Source of the DNA: Polyangia bacterium
GTDB lineage: Bacteria > Myxococcota_A > Polyangia > Polyangiales > JAUICN01
DNA length: 64,000 nt
NCBI GenBank assembly: GCA_030427835.1
Contig: JAUICN010000005.1
Location: forward strand, 62,001-126,000
Direction of reading: 5' to 3'
Shown here: in pieces, positions 35,796-44,183 of the stretch
Numbering within the stretch: position 1 is the stretch's first letter
How the letters are laid out: each line of letters begins with the position of its first letter
The notes under the pieces: generated by a model
Database searches by the model: none
Seen by the model: only the letters and a program-made list of their open reading frames with translations
Told to the model about the DNA's origin: nothing
Translations under genes and position numbers: made by a program

Positions 35796-35872
35796 TGGCG
35801 GACGCTAGAGGATTCGAACCTCTGACCTTCGGCTTCGGAGGCCGACGCTCTATCCAGCTGAGCTAAGCATCC
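35796..35872 (-). tRNA. tRNA-Arg (anticodon CCG)
   Basis: Cloverleaf on the minus strand: acceptor GGATGCT/AGCGTCC (one T-G wobble), D arm GCTC...GAGC, anticodon stem TCGGC/GCCGA with loop CTCCGAA (anticodon CCG, reads CGG), T arm AGAGG-TTCGAAT-CCTCT, discriminator G, encoded CCA. Sits immediately downstream of the fdx stop. Confidence 0.96.
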
Positions 35873-35889: not shown

Positions 35890-36225
35890 TTAGCCGGCGT
35901 CGGGATGTTCGTCCAGGTAGGCTTGGATGCTTTCGGCGGCGATTTCCACTTCCACTTCCCCGTTTTTCTCCAGCGTGGCCTGGCAACCGAGCCGTGAATT
36001 GTGGCGGGGGTCGAAGGCTTTCTCTAGAATATCCAGCTCCTCGTCTTCGGCTTCCGCTAGAAGCGATTCGCCCTGCCGCACATACACGTGGCAGGTGGAA
36101 CAGGCACATACGCCACCGCAGCGATCCCCCTCGGGAGCGCCCACCTTTTTTGCGGCATCCAGGATGGAAGCTCCGATGGGAATCTCCACTTCTTGATCGG
36201 TGTTGGTAAATCGTACGGTGGGCAT
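35890..36225 (-). CDS. fdx: ISC-type [2Fe-2S] ferredoxin
   Basis: 111-residue adrenodoxin-like ferredoxin that delivers electrons for cluster assembly. Ligands Cys36, Cys42, Cys45 and Cys81 fit C-x5-C-x2-C-x35-C (RCGGVCACSTC ... RLGCQATL). Last gene of the isc operon; its ribosome-binding site AAGGAG overlaps the final codons of hscA, 5 bases before the ATG. Confidence 0.95.
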   Translation of the reverse strand: MPTVRFTNTDQEVEIPIGASILDAAKKVGAPEGDRCGGVCACSTCHVYVRQGESLLAEAEDEELDILEKAFDPRHNSRLGCQATLEKNGEVEVEIAAESIQAYLDEHPDAG

Positions 36226-36227
36226 GG

Positions 36228-38189
36228 CTACTCCTTTGAACTCAATTTCTCCGGGTTCGTATTTGGCGGGGGTGGCAGGTGGGAATCGATTCCGCGGGCG
36301 TCGGCGGTCTGCTCTTCCACATGGCCGACGGACTCTCCCCGTAGGGCACCCGCAATGGCGGCTTCCATGCGGCGACCCGCAAAGGGTTTGCTCACGGCAT
36401 CCAGTTCTTCCAAACGTTGGCGCATGGCCTCCGGATCTTGCCCCTTGAGCGAGACCAGTAGTGCTTGCTTTGCGGTCTGTATGGCGGGTTGCTCGTCGTC
36501 GGTGAGGAGGTGGCCATCAGACCCTAGCGCGCTGTCCAGGGCCGATAGTACGCGCTGTGCCTCCACCCGACGTTGGGCAACAAGGCGCTTTTTCACATCC
36601 TCGTCGCCCCGTTCAAAGGCCTCGGTAAGCATACGTTCCATATCGGTTTCACTTAACCCGTGGCTGGGTTCCACATCCACCTGTTGTGATACCCCCGTGC
36701 GTTGCTCGCTGGCCTGCACGGAAAGCATGCCGCTGCCATCCACCTCGAACACCACCTCCAACCGGGCCATACCCGCCGGCATGGGGGGGATACCGCGAAG
36801 TGTAAATCGAGAGAGGGATCGACAATCTGCCGCAAGCTCTCGCTCGCCCTGGAGCACGTGGAGCTCAAACCCGGTTTGGTTGTCGGCATAGGTGGTAAAC
36901 ACCTGGGCACGGCGGGCTGGAATGGGAGTATTCCGTGGCAAGATATTTTCCACAACTCCACCCATGGTCTCAATGCCCAGGGAAAGTGGCAGCACATCGA
37001 GCAACAATGCGTCGTTGCTTGCCCGGTGGGAATCGCCTGCGCGGTCCGCGAGCATATCGGCCTGTAACGCAGCCCCCATGGCCACCACCAAATCGGGATC
37101 CACGGCGTGCATGGGCGCCTGCCCAAGCTGTTTTTCCAAGCGCGTACGCACGAGCGGGGTTCGGGTGGCACCGCCCACTAGAATCACCCCATCCAGACTT
37201 GGGGCGGCCACGCCCGCATCTTTTAGTGCGGCGTCGCAACTGTTTAGGGTTTGCTCCACAAGCGGCAGGATGGTCGATTCGAACATCTCTCGGGTGATCG
37301 ACGTGGTGTGACTCTCGCTACCCTGGGCACCACTCCGGTCCCAGGTGATCGTTACCTCACCACGATCGGTGAGCTGATGTTTGGCCTCGCGACACTGGGT
37401 ATGGAGCCGCACCTGTTCTTGAGGCGTAAGCTCGCTGAGAGCCGTGTCCTGCTGCTGGAGAACCATGGACACAAGGGCCCGGTCCATGTCATCTCCGCCC
37501 AGCTGGGAATCGCCGCCGGTGGATTTCACCTGGAACACCCCATCGTCCAGAATGAGTACGGTGACGTCAAAGGTGCCACCACCTAGATCGTAGACGAGAA
37601 AGGTACCGTCCTTTTTTTCTGCCAGCCCGTAGGCCAGGGCCGCAGCGGTGGGTTCGTTGAGAAGGCTGAGCACTTCCAAACCTGCGAGCTGGGCTGCATC
37701 CCGGGTGGCCTGGCGTTGTGCATCATCAAAGTAGGCGGGCACGGTGATCACGGCAGGCCCCACCCCGCCCAACTCATCCAGCGCCCGGTTCTTCATTTCC
37801 CGAAGAATGTCGGCGCTGACTTCCACCGGCGTGATTTGACGGCCATCCCCTAGGACAACCTTTACGAATCTCGTCTCCGTCCCATCCAGTCGGTAGGATC
37901 CTGTCAGGTGTTGTACCTCAGCGGCGCTTTTCCCCATCCAGCGTTTCACGCTGCGCAGGGTCTCCTGGGGAGCCTCATCGCTTTTTAGGAGTGCAGGCTC
38001 ACCGACCAAAACGTTTCCGTCTGGGGCATAGTGCACGACCGACGGTACAAGGGTTTTCCCATCACAATCGGCAATGGCTACAGGCTGGCCAACGGGAGGC
38101 ACCCAGGAGACCACGCTATGTGTGGTGCCCAGATCAATGCCGATGGGAGAAGGGGCGGCAGCGGGATCGTGAATGTGGAGAAGGGCCAT
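36228..38189 (-). CDS. hscA: Fe-S assembly Hsp70 chaperone HscA
   Basis: 653-residue specialised Hsp70 that releases the cluster from IscU. The ATPase domain is complete: [60 protein letters not shown] and [13 protein letters not shown]. The substrate-binding part contains [12 protein letters not shown]. Its IscU docking motif LPPVK is kept in the neighbouring iscU gene. hscB ends 4 bases upstream; that J-protein lacks HPD (see findings), which raises the question of how this ATPase is stimulated. Confidence 0.95.
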
Positions 38190-38193
38190 GGGT

Positions 38194-38748
38194 CTAGGGG
38201 GATCCGGGGGTTGAAGAGGGGGTGGTTGGGGGCGCCATGGCGCGCTTGGCTTCTTCCGCGAGACGACGCAGGTACTTCCAATGGGCGTGCCGTTGTAGCA
38301 GACCCGGGTCGACGCTTGTTGCTGACTCTCTCGCGCCCTGTGGAACGGAAAGAGACGCGTTCAATTCCTGGGCAAGTTGTTGTTCCATCTCCAGGGCTTT
38401 CCCGCTCAACCGGGTGGACAACTGTTCAAGGGGGGCCTTGTCTTCCGTGGCAGACAGGGACTCCAGCTCTTCCTTGATTTCCATCATTTCAAAGAGAAAA
38501 TCCTGATCGGGGGGCGTTTCCATTTCGGTGCCTCCACCCAATAGGGATTCCAACGCCCAGTGGTACCGCGCAGGAATATCCTTAAGCGTTCGATAGGCAT
38601 GGTTGAGTCGCGCCTGCTCCTGGTCGCGATTTCTTGTGTCGGAACTCCGGTGTAGGGATCGCTGGGCTGCGCGGTAGGCGCGGTCCAGGTCCGCGATGGC
38701 AATGGTTAGGTCTGGACGAATGCCCAGTTGCTCAAAGGGGTTGTTCAT
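38194..38748 (-). CDS. hscB: HscB-like co-chaperone with degenerate J domain (HPD lost)
   Basis: 184-residue J-domain protein. The N-terminal J-like region ([20 protein letters not shown]) and the C-terminal IscU-binding helices ([20 protein letters not shown], and [16 protein letters not shown]) align with HscB in length and order. Where HscB has the invariant HPD loop, the DNA reads L-H-R-S-S-D (His33-Arg34-Ser35), so Pro and Asp of HPD are both replaced. HPD is required in known J proteins to trigger Hsp70 ATP hydrolysis. Operon position iscA-hscB-hscA is normal. The C-tail is Pro/Thr/Ser-rich. Confidence 0.85.
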
Positions 38749-38768: not shown

Positions 38769-39185
38769 TCAGACGATGAAGGATTCACCACAACCGCAAC
38801 CGCCCTTTTCATTGGGGTTCACAAACTTAAAGCCATGACCCATGAGTTTCACTTCGTAGTCCAGGGTGGATCCTCGTAGGAAAACCAGGCTCTTGGGATC
38901 CACAAGCACACGCAGATCCCCAAACTCGAAGACAAGGTCTCTGGTGCGTAACTTGTCTGAGAACTCGATGGCATAGGCCAAACCCGAGCAACCTCCCCCT
39001 CGCACGCCCAACCGCAGGTACGCTTCTGGGGTACCCCTGCGCACGAGTGCCTTTTTTGCCATCTCCACCGCCTTGGGTGTGAGCTGGATCTCGGGTGTAC
39101 CCTCCTCCACTGGAGGTGCCGGGGATAGGCCTTCAGGCTTGTTGGAGCCCGTGGCATCGCTGGGGTGTTCTGAGGCGGTTTGCAT
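38769..39185 (-). CDS. iscA: A-type Fe-S carrier (IscA family)
   Basis: 138 residues: an unusual ~28-residue Ser/Pro/Glu-rich leader, then the A-type carrier fold. The three conserved cysteines are present: Cys66 (GGGCSGLAY) and Cys130/Cys132 (GGCGCGESF). It accepts clusters from IscU and passes them to targets. Lies between iscU and hscB as in the classical isc operon; 20 bases before hscB. Confidence 0.93.
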   Translation of the reverse strand: MQTASEHPSDATGSNKPEGLSPAPPVEEGTPEIQLTPKAVEMAKKALVRRGTPEAYLRLGVRGGGCSGLAYAIEFSDKLRTRDLVFEFGDLRVLVDPKSLVFLRGSTLDYEVKLMGHGFKFVNPNEKGGCGCGESFIV

Positions 39186-39254: not shown

Positions 39255-39647
39255 TTACTCTGGGGCGTTCTGCTTTTTTCGGTAGTCGGCAATGGCGCTT
39301 TTTATGGCATCCTCTGCCAGTACGGAACAGTGAATCTTCACCGGTGGGAGATTCAACTCCTCCACGATGGCTGTGTTTTTCAGGGCGCCGGCCTCTTCGA
39401 TGGTTTTTCCGCGAATCCATTCCGTCGCCAGGGACGAGGATGCGATGGCGCTTCCACATCCAAAGGTCTTGAACTTGGCATCTTCGATCACCTGGGTCTC
39501 GGGATTGACCTTGATCTGCAACCGCATGACGTCACCACAGGCCGGGGCGCCCACCAGGCCGGTGCCCACTTCGGCGCTTGCCTTGTCCAGGGTGCCCACG
39601 TTGCGTGGCTTTTCGTAATGTTCGATGAGTTTTTCAGAGTAGGCCAT
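39255..39647 (-). CDS. iscU: Fe-S cluster scaffold IscU
   Basis: 130-residue scaffold on which [2Fe-2S] clusters form. Ligands Cys37, Asp39, Cys64, His106 and Cys107 are all present (APACGDVM, FGCGSAIASSS, KIHCSVLAEDA). The HscA recognition motif LPPVK is intact at 100-104. It follows iscS by 12 bases. Confidence 0.97.
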   Translation of the reverse strand: MAYSEKLIEHYEKPRNVGTLDKASAEVGTGLVGAPACGDVMRLQIKVNPETQVIEDAKFKTFGCGSAIASSSLATEWIRGKTIEEAGALKNTAIVEELNLPPVKIHCSVLAEDAIKSAIADYRKKQNAPE

Positions 39648-39659
39648 GATGTTTTCTTT

Positions 39660-40886
39660 CTAGTGCGCTTCCCATTGGATGGATTTGAGGTCGATGCCTT
39701 CTTTGTGCATTTCGTACAAGGGCGACAATTCCCGGAGTCGGTGAACCTGCTCGATGACCAGATCCGCCACGTAGTCTACTTCCTCTTCCGTGTTGAACCT
39801 TCCCAGGCCAAAACGGATGGAGGTGTGGGCAAGCTCCTCGTCCACACCGAGGGAACGAAGGACGTAGCTGGGCTCAAGGCTTGCACTGGTGCAGGCGCTT
39901 CCAGAGGAGACGGCTACCTCCTTGATAGCCATCATCATGGCTTCCCCTTCCACGAAGGCGAAGGAGACGTTGAGGTTTCCTGGGTGGCGCCAGGGATCGT
40001 CGCTTCCGTTCAGAAAGATCTCATCCAGGTTGTCCCACAGCTTCTTGCGAAGTCGATCCCGCAGGCTACGGGTGTGCTGGATATCTTTTTCGCCCTCGTC
40101 GATAAAAATTTGAGCCGCTGCACCCATGCCGACAATGCCGGTGACGTTGAGGGTGCCGGAACGCATGCCCCGCTCGTGGCCGCCGCCGTCCATTTCTGCA
40201 GCGAGGCGAACGCGTGGCTTGGAGCGACGCACGTACAGGGCACCCACACCCTTGGGGCCGTACATCTTGTGACCGCTCATGCTCGCAAGGTCGATATTCA
40301 TGCGCTCCACATCAAAGTCCATGCGGCCCACGCCTTGCACCGCGTCGCAGTGGAGAAATACACCCCTGTCTCGGGTGATGGCTCCGATTTCTTCCATGCG
40401 TTGCACGGTACCCACCTCATTGTTGGCGAGCATGATGCTTACCAGGATGGTTTTGTCCGTGATGGCCCGCTTGAGATCCTCCGGATCCACCTGGCCCTCG
40501 TTGTTGGTGGGCAAATAGGTGACCTCAAAGCCCTCTTTTTCGAGGCGCTTGCAGGGATCAAGTACCGCCTTGTGTTCCGTGAGGCACGTGATGATGTGGT
40601 TGCCCTTGGTCTTAAGGAAGCGCGCCACGCCCTTGATGGCCAAGTTGTCGCTCTCCGTGGCACCCGAGGTGAAAATGATTTCCTTGGGGCTGTTGGCACC
40701 GATCAGGGTGGCGATTTGCCCCCGTGCTTTTTCAACCGCCTCTTCGCCCTTCCACCCGAAGGCATGGTTGCGGCTTGCAGCGTTTCCAAAATTTTCTGTG
40801 AAGTAGGGCAACATGGCCTGCACCACCCTGGGGTCACAGGGGGTGGTTGCGTTGTTGTCCATGTAGATGGGTGTGCGGATAGTCAT
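39660..40886 (-). CDS. iscS: Cysteine desulfurase IscS
   Basis: 408-residue PLP enzyme that takes sulfur from cysteine for Fe-S clusters and tRNA thiolation. PLP Lys207 lies in [16 protein letters not shown]; the mobile persulfide loop [20 protein letters not shown] carries Cys332; [11 protein letters not shown] precedes. The long active-site loop and terminal region are group I (IscS) rather than SufS. 56 bases after the MerR-type gene that heads the operon. Confidence 0.97.
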
Positions 40887-40942
40887 GATCGTTGTTGGCG
40901 TGGGGTAGTAAGGAATCTAAGGGATGTTGTGGGCGACCCTAT

Positions 40943-41572
40943 TTAGGTATTGTGTAGACCGGCCACAAGGGAAGGTGTATGCCCGTTCTTCTGGGAAGGA
41001 TCTCGACGTTCACAGGAATGGCAGGCATCCAGGGGCGTGTGACGGCTTTCGCACTGACCACAGAGCTCCAGGTACCGGAGGCTCTCTTCCAACTCCCCTT
41101 CTAGCGTCGCCAATGCAGTTCTTTGTTTGCGGGTTTCTGCAAGCTTGGTTTGAAATCGCTCACGGACCTTTGCCATGGCCTCGGGCCCGGTCGCACTCTG
41201 GTTCCATTCGCCGAGGATCTCCCGGATCTCAGGCAGGGAACAGCCCAGGGCCTGGAGTTTTGCGATCCAACGAACCCGGTGGATCGCCTCCTCGTTGTAC
41301 AGGCGATAGCCTGCGGCCGATCGGCTCACGGGTGACAACAGCTGCATTTCCTCGTACAGTCGCAGGGCCCGCACGGAACGACCGGTGCGCTTGGCCAGGG
41401 CCCCCACGCGAATGGGTCCCACGCGAACCGGTGTGGAGCCCCCCTGAACCACCGCACCGCCCTTGAAGGATGTACAGGTGACAGGCCGATCCGTTGCTGG
41501 CCGATCCGCTGCTGGCCGATCGGTTGAGGGATGGCAAGACGGGCTGATTTTTAGTTTGGCAGAGGAGTGCAT
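40943..41572 (-). CDS. MerR-family regulator heading the isc operon
   Basis: 209-residue regulator from ATG 41572. The winged HTH (about 54-120) reads RVGALAKRTGRSVRALRLYE, then GYRLYNEEAIHRVRWIAKLQ; a coiled-coil helix follows (125-170), then CGQCESRHTPLDACHSC, a C-x2-C-x9-C-x2-C cluster (Cys171, 174, 184, 187) suited to binding a metal or Fe-S cluster. It occupies the position of iscR. The first ~50 residues, including a 15-base triple repeat (DRPAADRPATDRP), precede the HTH and may be untranslated if GTG 41422 is the start. Regulation of isc is inference from position. Confidence 0.85.
   Translation of the reverse strand: MHSSAKLKISPSCHPSTDRPAADRPATDRPVTCTSFKGGAVVQGGSTPVRVGPIRVGALAKRTGRSVRALRLYEEMQLLSPVSRSAAGYRLYNEEAIHRVRWIAKLQALGCSLPEIREILGEWNQSATGPEAMAKVRERFQTKLAETRKQRTALATLEGELEESLRYLELCGQCESRHTPLDACHSCERRDPSQKNGHTPSLVAGLHNT
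41484..41528 (-). repeat. 15-bp tandem repeat, 3 copies, at the 5' end of the MerR gene
   Basis: Units ggccgatccgttgct, ggccgatccgctgct and ggccgatcggttgag are consecutive and would encode DRPATDRP-type repeats if the long start is used. Confidence 0.85.
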
Positions 41573-41578
41573 AACCCT

Positions 41579-41634
41579 AACCCTTACGTAAGGGTTGATG
41601 TCGCGTTTCTAGCGATGTGATCGCGACCTGTCAA
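41579..41634 (-). promoter_or_regulatory. Candidate promoter and operators of the MerR-isc operon
   Basis: On the minus strand TTGACA (41634-41629) and TAGAAA (41611-41606) are 17 bases apart, a good sigma-70 promoter. The spacer contains GCGAT-cac-ATCGC, an inverted repeat where MerR proteins normally bind. Just downstream is an 18-base perfect palindrome, aacccttacgtaagggtt (41579-41596), ending 6 bases before ATG 41572; it may be a second operator or a 5' UTR hairpin. comEC lies divergently. Confidence 0.6.
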
Positions 41635-41756
41635 CCGTTGTGAGGCCCCAGGGGGGCTGTTTGTGTAGGGGGCGCCCATTCGCCAGCTGACGAAGATGTA
41701 AACCGCTGAATTTATTGGCACGCCCCCCGGACCGTGGATTGCACGACTGGGTGCCC

Positions 41757-44183
41757 ATGGGATCACGTATTGCAGGGGCGGTCCTGGGCCCCCTGCCCTG
41801 GATTGCGGGGTTCTGGATCATGTGCTTGGTGCTGTTTTCGCAGGCTCCTGAGACCTGGCGATGCCCGGAGCCCTACAAGGGCCCCGTTCTATGCCTATCT
41901 ATTCTTTGGGGGATGTCTTGCGTTTGGCTGGCGACCCGGGTGCCCTGGTTTCGGGGGTCCCTTGCCCTGGGCACCGCGGGGGCGACCCTTGCGGCAGCAG
42001 TGGCGGTTTTGGCGTGGGTGGCGGCTCCCTCCGCCGTTCAACGACCGTTTGTGGGTGGCACCTACGGGATCCAGGGAGTTGCCGTACACACGTGGGGTCA
42101 CGGTGCGGATGTGGGGTGCCAACTTCGGGTGTTTCAAGCACACCCTGTGGGTCAAGTGCCGCTGTGCCACCGGCCGGTACAACACCTTACACCAGGGACC
42201 CGGATTCGCCTGCGGGGGTGCGATGTGCCTCTTGGTTCCCGGGTCCGCCTTTTGGCGCGGATGTCTGAGCGACCCCAGTACGAAAATCCCATCGAAGGAC
42301 TTTCGTGGCCATGCTCCCAGGAGCCGAGGGGAATGGTGCTCGATTCAGGTTCGGTGGACGTGCTCGATTCTCCCTGGGCTCCCCGTATGTTGGACCGTGC
42401 GAGGCACCATGTGCGCCAGCTGTTGGGCCGCACGCTCTCCCCGGAAACTGCCGCCCTGGGCCAGGCCATGTTGCTCGGGGACCGCAGTTCGCTGGATTGG
42501 GACATGCGCCAACATTGGTCAGACGCGGGGGTCGCCCATGTACTTGCCGTGTCGGGACTGCACGTGGGCCTGGTCGTGTGGATGGCGGTTGCCCTATTGG
42601 GAACCATCATGGCCGGGTTGCTTCGATGGTGGCCGTTGGTGGGCGTGGCGCTGCTTTCACGCTGGACCTGGCCGAACCTCAGGTGGGCCGCGGCCGGAAT
42701 ACTGGCGGTGGGTTTCATGGTGTTTACCGGCGGCTCCCCCAGTGTGTGCCGTGCCGGTTGGATGGTACTGATCTATGCGGGACTGCAGTGGATGGGGCGT
42801 GTACCCGCTCCGAGCGCGGTGTTGGCTACGGTGGGCCTGGTACTTTCAACCGTTCGACCCGAATGGGTACTGGATCCCGGGTTCTTTCTTTCCCTGGGTG
42901 CAACCGCTGCCCTCATACATCTGCCAACGTCGCCGTTCGGACTCGGTTCTGAAAAGGCCTCCGTTTCTCCACTTGCTGCGGGTCTTGAGGCCCTTGAGCA
43001 CGTGGGGACCGTACCCACATTTCGGATCCTGGTCGCCTGCTCGCCGGTGCTGTGGTTGTGCTTTGGCCAGCTCCCGCTTGGGGCGTTGATTGCCAATGTG
43101 GTAGCTGTTCCGTGGACGGCACTTGTGGTGCTTCCGTTGGTGTTGGTTCACGTGGTGAGCTTTGGAGCAGTGCCTGCCTCCTCGTTCGCTGTGGAACTGA
43201 GTTGCGCGGTGCTTTCATCCTGGGCCATGCAGGTCGGCCATTGGATTCCCCCGCTCGCGCTTCCGTCTCCCCTGGGCTGGCAGCTGGCGCTGCTTGTCCC
43301 CTGGTCTGTCTTCACGGCCATGGGTGGTTCAGGCCTACGATGGTGGACCGTGACGGTGGGGACGGTTGTTGTACTCGCCGGTGGTGCCCATTGGACACCT
43401 CGAGAACCCATCGGGAGTACCTCGGATCTGTCCCTACTGGAGGTCACGTTCCTGGACGTGGGCCAGGGGGACGCCGCCTGGGTGAGATTTCCGAATGGTC
43501 AGTCCATGGTGATCGATGCGGGGGGACATACCCAGCCTTTTTGGGATCCGGGTAGACGGGTTGTGGTGCCCTTTTTGTTGGGGGCTGGCGTGCGTCACCT
43601 GGATGCACTTGTGGTGAGCCATGGGCACCCGGACCACTATGGTGGTGTTAGGGCAATTCTTGAACAGCTCGAGGTGGATCAAATTTGGTCCGAAACATCG
43701 AAAGGAATACCGGAAGGGTTCCATACCAAGATCGTCTCTCCAGGGATTCTGTGTCACGCTCCCAGGAGTTTTGGCGATGTGCGCGTGGAGGTTCTGTGGC
43801 CCTGCGGAGAGGTGACCCTGCAGGATGCCAACAACCGGTCGATCACCATGAGGATCACCTACGGCACACAACGCGTCCTATTCACGGGTGACCTGGAAGC
43901 CCCTGCAGAAGCCCAGTTGTTGCAGCGCAATGCCACTCTCGACGCCTCCCTTGTGAAGGTTCCCCACCACGGCTCAAGGACATCCTCATCGTCTGGGTTT
44001 GTGGAAGCTGTGGGGCCGCAATGGGCGGTGGTGAGTTCTGGGGTCTGCAGTCGGTACGGACACCCCCATCCCGACGTCAGGCAGCGGTGGGCCAAACAGG
44101 GTGCAGACGTTCTTTCCACAGCGCAAACCGGTGCGATTCAGTGGGTCTCGGACGGCCGCCGAGGCTGGATCAGGGAGCGCTGA
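41757..44183 (+). CDS. comEC: ComEC/Rec2 DNA uptake channel
   Basis: About 808-residue inner-membrane protein that carries single-stranded DNA into the cytosol during natural transformation. N-terminal spans and OB-fold region lead to the Competence domain with WSDAGVAHVLAVSGLHVGLV (~258-278); the C-terminal beta-lactamase-like domain has FLDVGQGDAAWVRF and VVSHGHPDHYGGVR. I choose ATG 41757; TTG 41715 or GTG 41751 are alternatives. No other com genes are present. Its 3' end overlaps the convergent secreted-protein gene by 14 bases. Confidence 0.92.
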   Translation: MGSRIAGAVLGPLPWIAGFWIMCLVLFSQAPETWRCPEPYKGPVLCLSILWGMSCVWLATRVPWFRGSLALGTAGATLAAAVAVLAWVAAPSAVQRPFVGGTYGIQGVAVHTWGHGADVGCQLRVFQAHPVGQVPLCHRPVQHLTPGTRIRLRGCDVPLGSRVRLLARMSERPQYENPIEGLSWPCSQEPRGMVLDSGSVDVLDSPWAPRMLDRARHHVRQLLGRTLSPETAALGQAMLLGDRSSLDWDMRQHWSDAGVAHVLAVSGLHVGLVVWMAVALLGTIMAGLLRWWPLVGVALLSRWTWPNLRWAAAGILAVGFMVFTGGSPSVCRAGWMVLIYAGLQWMGRVPAPSAVLATVGLVLSTVRPEWVLDPGFFLSLGATAALIHLPTSPFGLGSEKASVSPLAAGLEALEHVGTVPTFRILVACSPVLWLCFGQLPLGALIANVVAVPWTALVVLPLVLVHVVSFGAVPASSFAVELSCAVLSSWAMQVGHWIPPLALPSPLGWQLALLVPWSVFTAMGGSGLRWWTVTVGTVVVLAGGAHWTPREPIGSTSDLSLLEVTFLDVGQGDAAWVRFPNGQSMVIDAGGHTQPFWDPGRRVVVPFLLGAGVRHLDALVVSHGHPDHYGGVRAILEQLEVDQIWSETSKGIPEGFHTKIVSPGILCHAPRSFGDVRVEVLWPCGEVTLQDANNRSITMRITYGTQRVLFTGDLEAPAEAQLLQRNATLDASLVKVPHHGSRTSSSSGFVEAVGPQWAVVSSGVCSRYGHPHPDVRQRWAKQGADVLSTAQTGAIQWVSDGRRGWIRER

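Follow-up and report, generated by a model that had tools for sequence, protein, structure and literature searches.

What regulates the isc operon of a bacterium that appears to lack IscR? The question is raised by a stretch of 64,000 nucleotides from a Polyangia bacterium (assembly GCA_030427835.1, contig JAUICN010000005.1, positions 62,001 to 126,000; called the window below), in which a gene for a MerR-family regulator, here called merR, heads iscSUA-hscBA-fdx, the genes for iron–sulfur (Fe-S) cluster assembly. An earlier note on this DNA, made from the letters alone, had merR opening the isc operon in the same orientation, and we found it so, at 40943–41572 on the − strand before iscS (the span given in that note, 40886–41640, starts at the iscS start codon). 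That the MerR protein stands in the place of IscR or RisR is well supported by sequence comparison, and we consider it probable that it is a dedicated autoregulating repressor of its Fe-S assembly operon, with an Fe-S cluster as the most likely signal. Comparison established the gene order, four cysteines, an operator-like dyad and its position, the lack of IscR, RisR and SUF in the source genome, and the recurrence of the regulator–dyad pair before SUF operons. The features of the regulator and its promoter are as follows.

40943–41572, − strand: MerR-family regulator, 209 amino acids, first gene of the isc operon, start codon tentative (Pfam)
41213–41413, − strand: MerR winged-helix DNA-binding domain, residues 54–120 (Pfam; AlphaFold2)
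41012–41062, − strand: four-cysteine motif C171-x2-C174-x9-C184-x2-C187, presumed sensor site (invariance in relatives)
41573–41596, − strand: 24-bp operator-like site AACCCTTACGTAAGGGTTAGGGTT, abutting the start codon and containing an 18-bp palindrome (matrix score 32.3)
41606–41611, − strand: −10 box TAGAAA (by eye and by script; layout common to relatives)
41629–41634, − strand: −35 box TTGACA, with a 17-bp spacer to the −10 (by eye and by script)

The regulator and its genomic setting

Conservation of the MerR-iscS pair in relatives, a check proposed in the earlier note, was assessed in 56 genomes of the order, the source genome included. In 39 of these, iscS follows immediately after the best MerR match, in the same orientation and at a spacing of 9–134 nt measured from match to match. 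IscU scored above its cut-off in 38 genomes, which together with G002, counted among the ISC genomes as its IscU is split by a contig end, are the 39 MerR genomes. The adjacency is therefore conserved in every ISC genome of the order (39/39), and the other 17 of the 56 are without it. SufB/SufD matches were found in 18 genomes, namely all 17 that lack the MerR orthologue and G027, a MerR genome with a single divergent SufBD match above the cut-off (61 bits). The distribution of SufBD (1/39 MerR genomes vs 17/17 others) gave a Fisher p of 1.8e-13, a value that ignores kinship.

Beyond the order, a named collection was scanned. A single-protein scan found no relative there; an alignment-based scan found 204 stretches that encode one, and the best 80 of these 204 are the named loci used below (their record labels may err singly; the iscS-linked L114 is labelled Bifidobacterium). 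The next gene was iscS in 72 named loci (L130 included), a SUF operon in seven and a contig edge in one (L118). In a phylum sample, 67 of 235 genomes had a match at E ≤1e-41, and iscS was next in all 30 loci fetched from that search, several of which are order genomes already counted; adjacency beyond those 30 was checked in 17 stretches.

The protein itself matched MerR_1 (PF13411), MerR-DNA-bind (PF09278) and MerR (PF00376) of Pfam, all above cut-off over its 209 amino acids, and an Rrf2 domain, as found in IscR and RisR, was absent from its Pfam matches. In the AlphaFold2 model, with block means of at least 95 across residues 51–160, a long helix spans residues 129–172 and the cysteine motif lies at or after its end. 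The Pfam matches, this helix and the fold matches given below together place the protein in the MerR superfamily, which is defined by an N-terminal winged helix and a long dimerisation helix.

A C-terminal C-x2-C-x9-C-x2-C had been read in the earlier note, and it is present as C171, C174, C184 and C187. Loss of these cysteines in orthologues, which that note had named as grounds for giving up its idea, was not seen. All four were invariant in the 36 aligned order proteins (36/36; one from each MerR genome except G014, G031 and G047) and in 66/66 rows of alignment A2, from which 15 named loci were left out (L118, L122 and L126, and 12 others that were near-duplicates at 85% identity), and the motif was present in 80/80 named loci. 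Its spacing in the order relatives is C-x2-3-C, then mostly x8, then C-x2-C. The alignments also showed that the cysteines sit behind the coiled coil and that the protein and its relatives share a conserved PxLVAG tail. At the other end, the order relatives share a short N-terminal box behind the dyad (M..RLPI or QLPV; alignment A1), in place of which the window protein has MHSSAKLKI (41546–41572, − strand).

The earlier note had IscR absent from the window, and this holds across the source genome. The IscR model TIGR02010 gave one match there, at 81.6 bits against a cut-off of 207.6, in a protein (C22:27534, in L001/L251) that has no cysteine triad and adjoins a cysteine-synthase-like (PALP) gene, an arrangement that we take to be reminiscent of CymR. 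This triad-less Rrf2 protein also lies near a ThiS-family gene, and similar proteins occur in many MerR genomes. A second Rrf2 match in the source genome was weak and partial (20.9 bits, in an unrelated-looking frame). By TIGR02010, Pfam Rrf2 (searched in the source genome and in five Eisenbacteria genomes) and the reading of cysteines, no IscR/RisR-like Rrf2 protein was found in the source genome, and so a functional iscR controlling isc, the other outcome that the note had held to be fatal, did not emerge. No SUF system was found in this genome either. Its second cysteine desulfurase adjoins an mnmA-type tRNA-modification gene, a position that presumably reflects a role in tRNA thiolation.

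Across the order, the TIGR02010 cut-off was passed in 0/56 genomes; this cut-off is strict, and only 1/14 control genomes passed it. A better test was the reading of cysteines in 54 stretches around IscR-model matches, which took in every match listed for the MerR genomes and, for the 17 others, 19 stretches. Each of the 17 MerR-less genomes has an Rrf2 match with three spaced cysteines. In 15 of the 17 it is no more than 1 kb away from a SufB/SufD match; in G010 and G022 it lies on another contig. Among the MerR genomes, 11/39 have no IscR-model match at all, and most of the remaining 28 have a triad-less protein as their best match. On these gene contents the order is split into genomes with ISC and MerR, and genomes with SUF and, mostly, a triad Rrf2 protein beside it.

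The dyad and its promoter

An 18-base palindrome upstream of the gene had been reported in the earlier note. It lies between promoter and ATG, at 41579–41596, as the perfect palindrome AACCCTTACGTAAGGGTT, the sole match in the window at up to three mismatches (0/100 shuffles had any), and it proved to be the form taken here by a 24-bp dyad, AACCCTYACGNNNNCGTRAGGGTT, that is conserved in relatives. Alignment of the upstream regions of 36 order genes gave AACCCTYACGCATACGTAAGGGTT, a site of 24 bp in which 7-bp core arms flank a 4-bp centre, and a matrix trained without the window scored the window site AACCCTTACGTAAGGGTTAGGGTT at 32.3. Symmetry is imperfect in most sites (mean 8.0/12 pairs); the window site has its right half displaced, so that a perfect 18-bp palindrome lies inside an imperfect 24-bp dyad. 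In some relatives (L020, L023, L007 and L025) two tandem copies of the dyad stand before the gene.

The sharpness of the matrix is inflated by its training on whichever sites matched best within 300 nt in 35 relatives; a fairer test is given by the named loci, 16 of which repeat a training site. The dyad scored at least 10 in 77/80 of them, and in 61/64 when the repeats of training sites were excluded. Among the controls, no in-gene stretch reached 0, and 30 shuffles per locus gave a best score of 7.6.

Searched as a 24-bp pattern with three mismatches, the dyad was present at isc in 34/39 MerR genomes, and the source genome has only one site at up to three mismatches. Stray sites were found in 5/56 genomes (G003, G004, G010, G014 and G028), and the reversed control gave sites in 9/56. 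The 18-bp core at one mismatch gave 168 sites in the 56 genomes vs 182 for its reversed control. A larger regulon was rejected, as the 24-bp dyad at three mismatches gives almost only the isc site; isc looks like the only target of the dyad, within the sensitivity of this search.

The promoter read in the earlier note, TTGACA-17-TAGAAA, was recovered at 41634–41629 and 41611–41606 (− strand); a stricter scan, which requires T at the last −10 position, omits TAGAAA. The same layout recurred in relatives. Among 101 sites, counted after removal of duplicates and of sites scoring below 12, 82 had TTGAC somewhere in the 70 nt that precede the dyad, vs 5/115 control stretches (these not de-duplicated). 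A −35 box matching at five or six of six positions was found in 66/101; the spacer was 17 in 55/66, and in 55 of the 66 the dyad begins 5–16 nt behind the −10. In 67/101 sites no more than 30 nt separate the dyad from the first in-frame ATG, and ten sites have no such ATG. The note had also pointed to an inverted repeat in the spacer. Its letters exist (GCGAT-3-ATCGC, 41612–41624) and have, by eye, no counterpart in the spacers of relatives; the repeat was rejected as an operator, does not appear to be part of the system and was treated as chance.

With its start 5–16 nt behind the −10, the dyad would overlap the transcription start, an arrangement that makes repression more likely than SoxR-like or classical MerR activation. 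SoxR and other MerR-family activators bind inside a long promoter spacer of 19–20 bp, and MerR-family repressors need not have their operator there. The idea of a SoxR-like redox activator, which would respond to oxidative stress by remodelling a long spacer in the promoter and so inducing isc, draws on a fold near that of SoxR (2zhg), on four cysteines per chain and on a 7-4-7 dyad like the SoxR box, CCTCAAG-N4-CTTGAGG. It conflicts with the 17-bp spacer and the dyad behind the −10, with the finding of no good −10 just behind the dyad (mean TATAAT match ≤2.2/6 at any offset, background 1.1), with a score of 43.5 bits for the SoxR equivalog model vs a cut-off of 116.9, and with a cysteine spacing unlike the C-x2-C-x-C-x5-C of SoxR, a [2Fe-2S] protein. 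We regard such an activator as very unlikely. The proposal of the earlier note, that a MerR protein replaces IscR and senses Fe-S status as SoxR senses redox, is supported in part. Adjacency, cysteines, dyad and the lack of IscR and SUF in the source genome back the replacement; Fe-S sensing would be a further step, and the promoter geometry departs from the SoxR picture.

For the autoregulating repressor that we favour, a homodimer would occupy the 24-bp dyad AACCCTYACGNNNNCGTRAGGGTT, sit over the point where transcription from the merR promoter begins, and shut off merR-iscSUA-hscBA-fdx. The signal would be bound by the four C-terminal cysteines, and its most likely form is an Fe-S cluster supplied by the very ISC machinery that the operon encodes. 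As long as clusters suffice, the holo-protein would repress; a shortage of clusters, or damage to them, would leave apo-protein, which would release the DNA and let the operon be induced. That the genes are co-transcribed, that the protein binds the dyad directly and represses, and that its ligand is Fe-S are inferences, the weakest of them being Fe-S sensing through a bound cluster. A dedicated regulator of Fe-S assembly would be marked by genes that head isc or suf operons, by a conserved operator-like site at the operon promoter and by expression that follows Fe-S status; the MerR protein has the first two of these properties.

The second of these associations, with suf, was seen in seven of the 80 named loci, five from Candidatus Eisenbacteria and two from Kofleriaceae. 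All seven SUF-linked MerR proteins keep the four cysteines, and the dyad scores 23–32 in six of the loci and 16 in L142. A tree was built from 44/80 named loci and 19 other proteins, with a midpoint root. In it the two SUF-linked groups stand apart among ISC-linked proteins, and the starred branches, none of whose sets holds the row of the window, force two changes. This suggests, as far as the tree can tell, that regulator and dyad stayed linked through at least two ISC/SUF operon changes. Rrf2 matches were absent from three of the five Eisenbacteria MerR-SUF genomes (G264, G265 and G267, the completeness of which is unstated); G266 and G268 have two and one, respectively.

Several observations weigh against a cluster-sensing repressor of isc. 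The confidence of the structure model is low at the four cysteines (block means 62–68), and for this reason ligand geometry was not judged from it. The dyad of the window abuts the ATG of merR and leaves no good ribosome-binding site, which makes the start codon uncertain. Three of the 80 named loci (L128, L108 and L093) score below 10 for the dyad, and the pattern search gave no dyad match at isc in 5/39 MerR genomes (G004, G013, G025, G031 and G046). In family f46 (L193, L194 and L195) a MerR gene precedes an IscS-like protein of 36–38% identity without the dyad. Some Rrf2 protein with three spaced cysteines is present in 10/39 MerR genomes (G004, G006, G019, G021, G032, G033, G038, G042, G050 and G051), of which only that of G021 (L210) is, by eye, of the RisR-like, SUF-side type. 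Finally, paralogues that stand next to other genes have the four cysteines too, so the motif could hold zinc or sense something else.

The signal, the paralogues and the operon

An Fe-S cluster was taken as the most likely signal because of the target genes, the four cysteines per chain and the precedent of RisR. With iscS or SUF genes downstream, a cluster would be the simplest signal. The protein might alternatively be a dedicated isc/suf regulator whose cysteines bind zinc, in a structural or a sensory role, or respond to persulfide, thiol or metal stress, Fe-S being sensed indirectly or not at all. C-x2-C ... C-x2-C is a common zinc arrangement, the best-scoring relatives are metal sensors and the paralogues carry the motif away from Fe-S genes; because of these paralogues and relatives, zinc or another signal keeps some of the probability. 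It has to be set against this that no metal-efflux or metal-resistance gene stands beside merR in the window (downstream is isc, and divergent a ComEC-like gene), and that the gene downstream is iscS in every one of the order's 39 ISC genomes and a SUF gene in two other lineages. On balance we find the zinc or stress sensor unlikely, at a level that still deserves attention, and keep the cluster as the more likely signal.

Two kinds of paralogue were seen, and in the tree both (C17 of the source genome and the sigma-linked copies of family f35) lie across the main fork, with support 94/81. C17 (L150:3130–3777, − strand) has C-x2-C-x8-C-x2-C and stands upstream of a GTP cyclohydrolase I gene. 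In f35 (L182, L184, L186, L188, L190, L192 and L196, with L192 ending at a contig edge) a second four-cysteine MerR gene lies directly before a sigma-70-type gene, like those of the extracytoplasmic function group, in 6/7 loci. Differing dyads lie near these second copies. They were considered as SUF partners and rejected, as no SUF gene stands beside them.

Behind merR in the window, the operon and its surroundings read as follows.

39660–40886, − strand: iscS, cysteine desulfurase (NF010611, above cut-off)
39255–39647, − strand: iscU, scaffold (TIGR01999, above cut-off)
38769–39185, − strand: iscA-type carrier (TIGR00049, above cut-off; IscA equivalog below its own cut-off)
38194–38748, − strand: hscB, co-chaperone (Pfam HSCB_C, above cut-off; NCBIfam hscB models below theirs)
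36228–38189, − strand: hscA, chaperone (TIGR01991, above cut-off)
35890–36225, − strand: fdx, [2Fe-2S] ferredoxin (Pfam Fer2, above cut-off; best NCBIfam match fdx_isc, below cut-off)
35796–35872, − strand: tRNA-Arg(CCG), directly behind fdx
41715–44183, + strand: ComEC-like competence gene, divergent from merR

The M. xanthus isc operon is reported to end in a tRNA-Leu gene (PMC9973013).

The gap of 56 nt between merR and iscS in the window, which is larger in some relatives, would leave room for a different arrangement, in which merR is a conserved neighbour without control of isc, the dyad serves autoregulation only and iscS has another promoter. Between the two genes no promoter-like or terminator-like site was found on the − strand, in a scan that also misses TAGAAA. 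The stop codon of merR and the start codon of the next gene overlap (gap −3) in 14/80 named loci, and the linkage of MerR tracks the assembly operon through two ISC/SUF changes. Set beside control of the whole operon by the MerR protein, an isc operon that ignores its first gene seems to us barely credible.

Comparison with known regulators

E. coli IscR, an Rrf2 protein with three cluster cysteines and a large regulon, resembles the MerR protein in being encoded by the first gene of the isc operon and in its presumed negative feedback by Fe-S status. The two differ in fold and site, which are unrelated, in the cysteines, and in the size of the regulon, which here is apparently one operon. SufR, the suf regulator of cyanobacteria and actinobacteria, is alike as a non-Rrf2 repressor of an Fe-S assembly operon with a cysteine-liganded cluster, but it belongs to another family and is bound to SUF, whereas the MerR protein is mostly bound to ISC.

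SoxR shares the MerR fold, the four C-terminal cysteines per chain and the 7-4-7 dyad, and differs in cysteine spacing, in target genes and in a dyad that lies within the spacer, not behind the −10. By fold, CadR (6jgx; Z 12.3, root-mean-square deviation 3.2, 125 aligned) and SoxR (2zhg; Z 11.3, 4.5, 116 aligned) are about equally near the predicted structure. The metal sensors CadR/PbrR, CueR, ZntR and MerR are the closest by sequence score and fold; CueR is the best-scoring NCBIfam model, and 4ua1, 5gpe (PbrR691) and CadR are the best matches by sequence. They differ in that their equivalog cut-offs were missed (CueR 65.6/147.4, ZntR 58.7/167.95, CadR-PbrR 56.6/151.45 and MerR 54.9/150.85 bits), and in the four cysteines behind the coiled coil, the PxLVAG tail and the lack of a metal-resistance neighbour in the window.

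In Myxococcus xanthus, holo-RisR represses isc and suf, and RisR, like the MerR protein, heads an Fe-S assembly operon (risR-sufBCDSUT) and has a palindromic site at the promoter (PMC9973013). It differs as an Rrf2 protein with three cysteines and a site core of GAC-N7-GTC, and the isc transcriptional unit of M. xanthus, as described there, contains no regulator gene. The term 'MerR' has 0 occurrences in PMC9973013. No description of a MerR regulator of isc or suf was found in the literature searched, a scope that left most subscription journals and all preprints outside. To our knowledge, dedicated control of Fe-S assembly is known chiefly through Rrf2 proteins (IscR and RisR) and SufR, and SoxR is the only Fe-S sensor of the MerR family known to us.

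If the MerR protein does the job of IscR, the same problem of control would have been solved by a separate evolutionary route, and Fe-S sensing in the MerR family would extend beyond SoxR. The wiring would be convergent, with a MerR protein in the place of the regulator in 39/56 genomes of the order and before SUF in two lineages, and the split of the order into ISC with MerR and SUF with Rrf2 would be a natural experiment on the joint swapping of regulator and machinery. Whether this amounts to a class of MerR-fold Fe-S regulators apart from Rrf2 and SufR seems to us evenly balanced. Such a class would bind its cluster through C-x2-C-x8-9-C-x2-C, repress from a dyad over the transcription start, have been kept with that dyad through at least two ISC/SUF changes, and replace RisR where only ISC was kept. 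By family the regulator of the window is a MerR protein; by position and presumed role it is like IscR and RisR, and it would thus be a MerR-family solution to a job done elsewhere by Rrf2 proteins and SufR.

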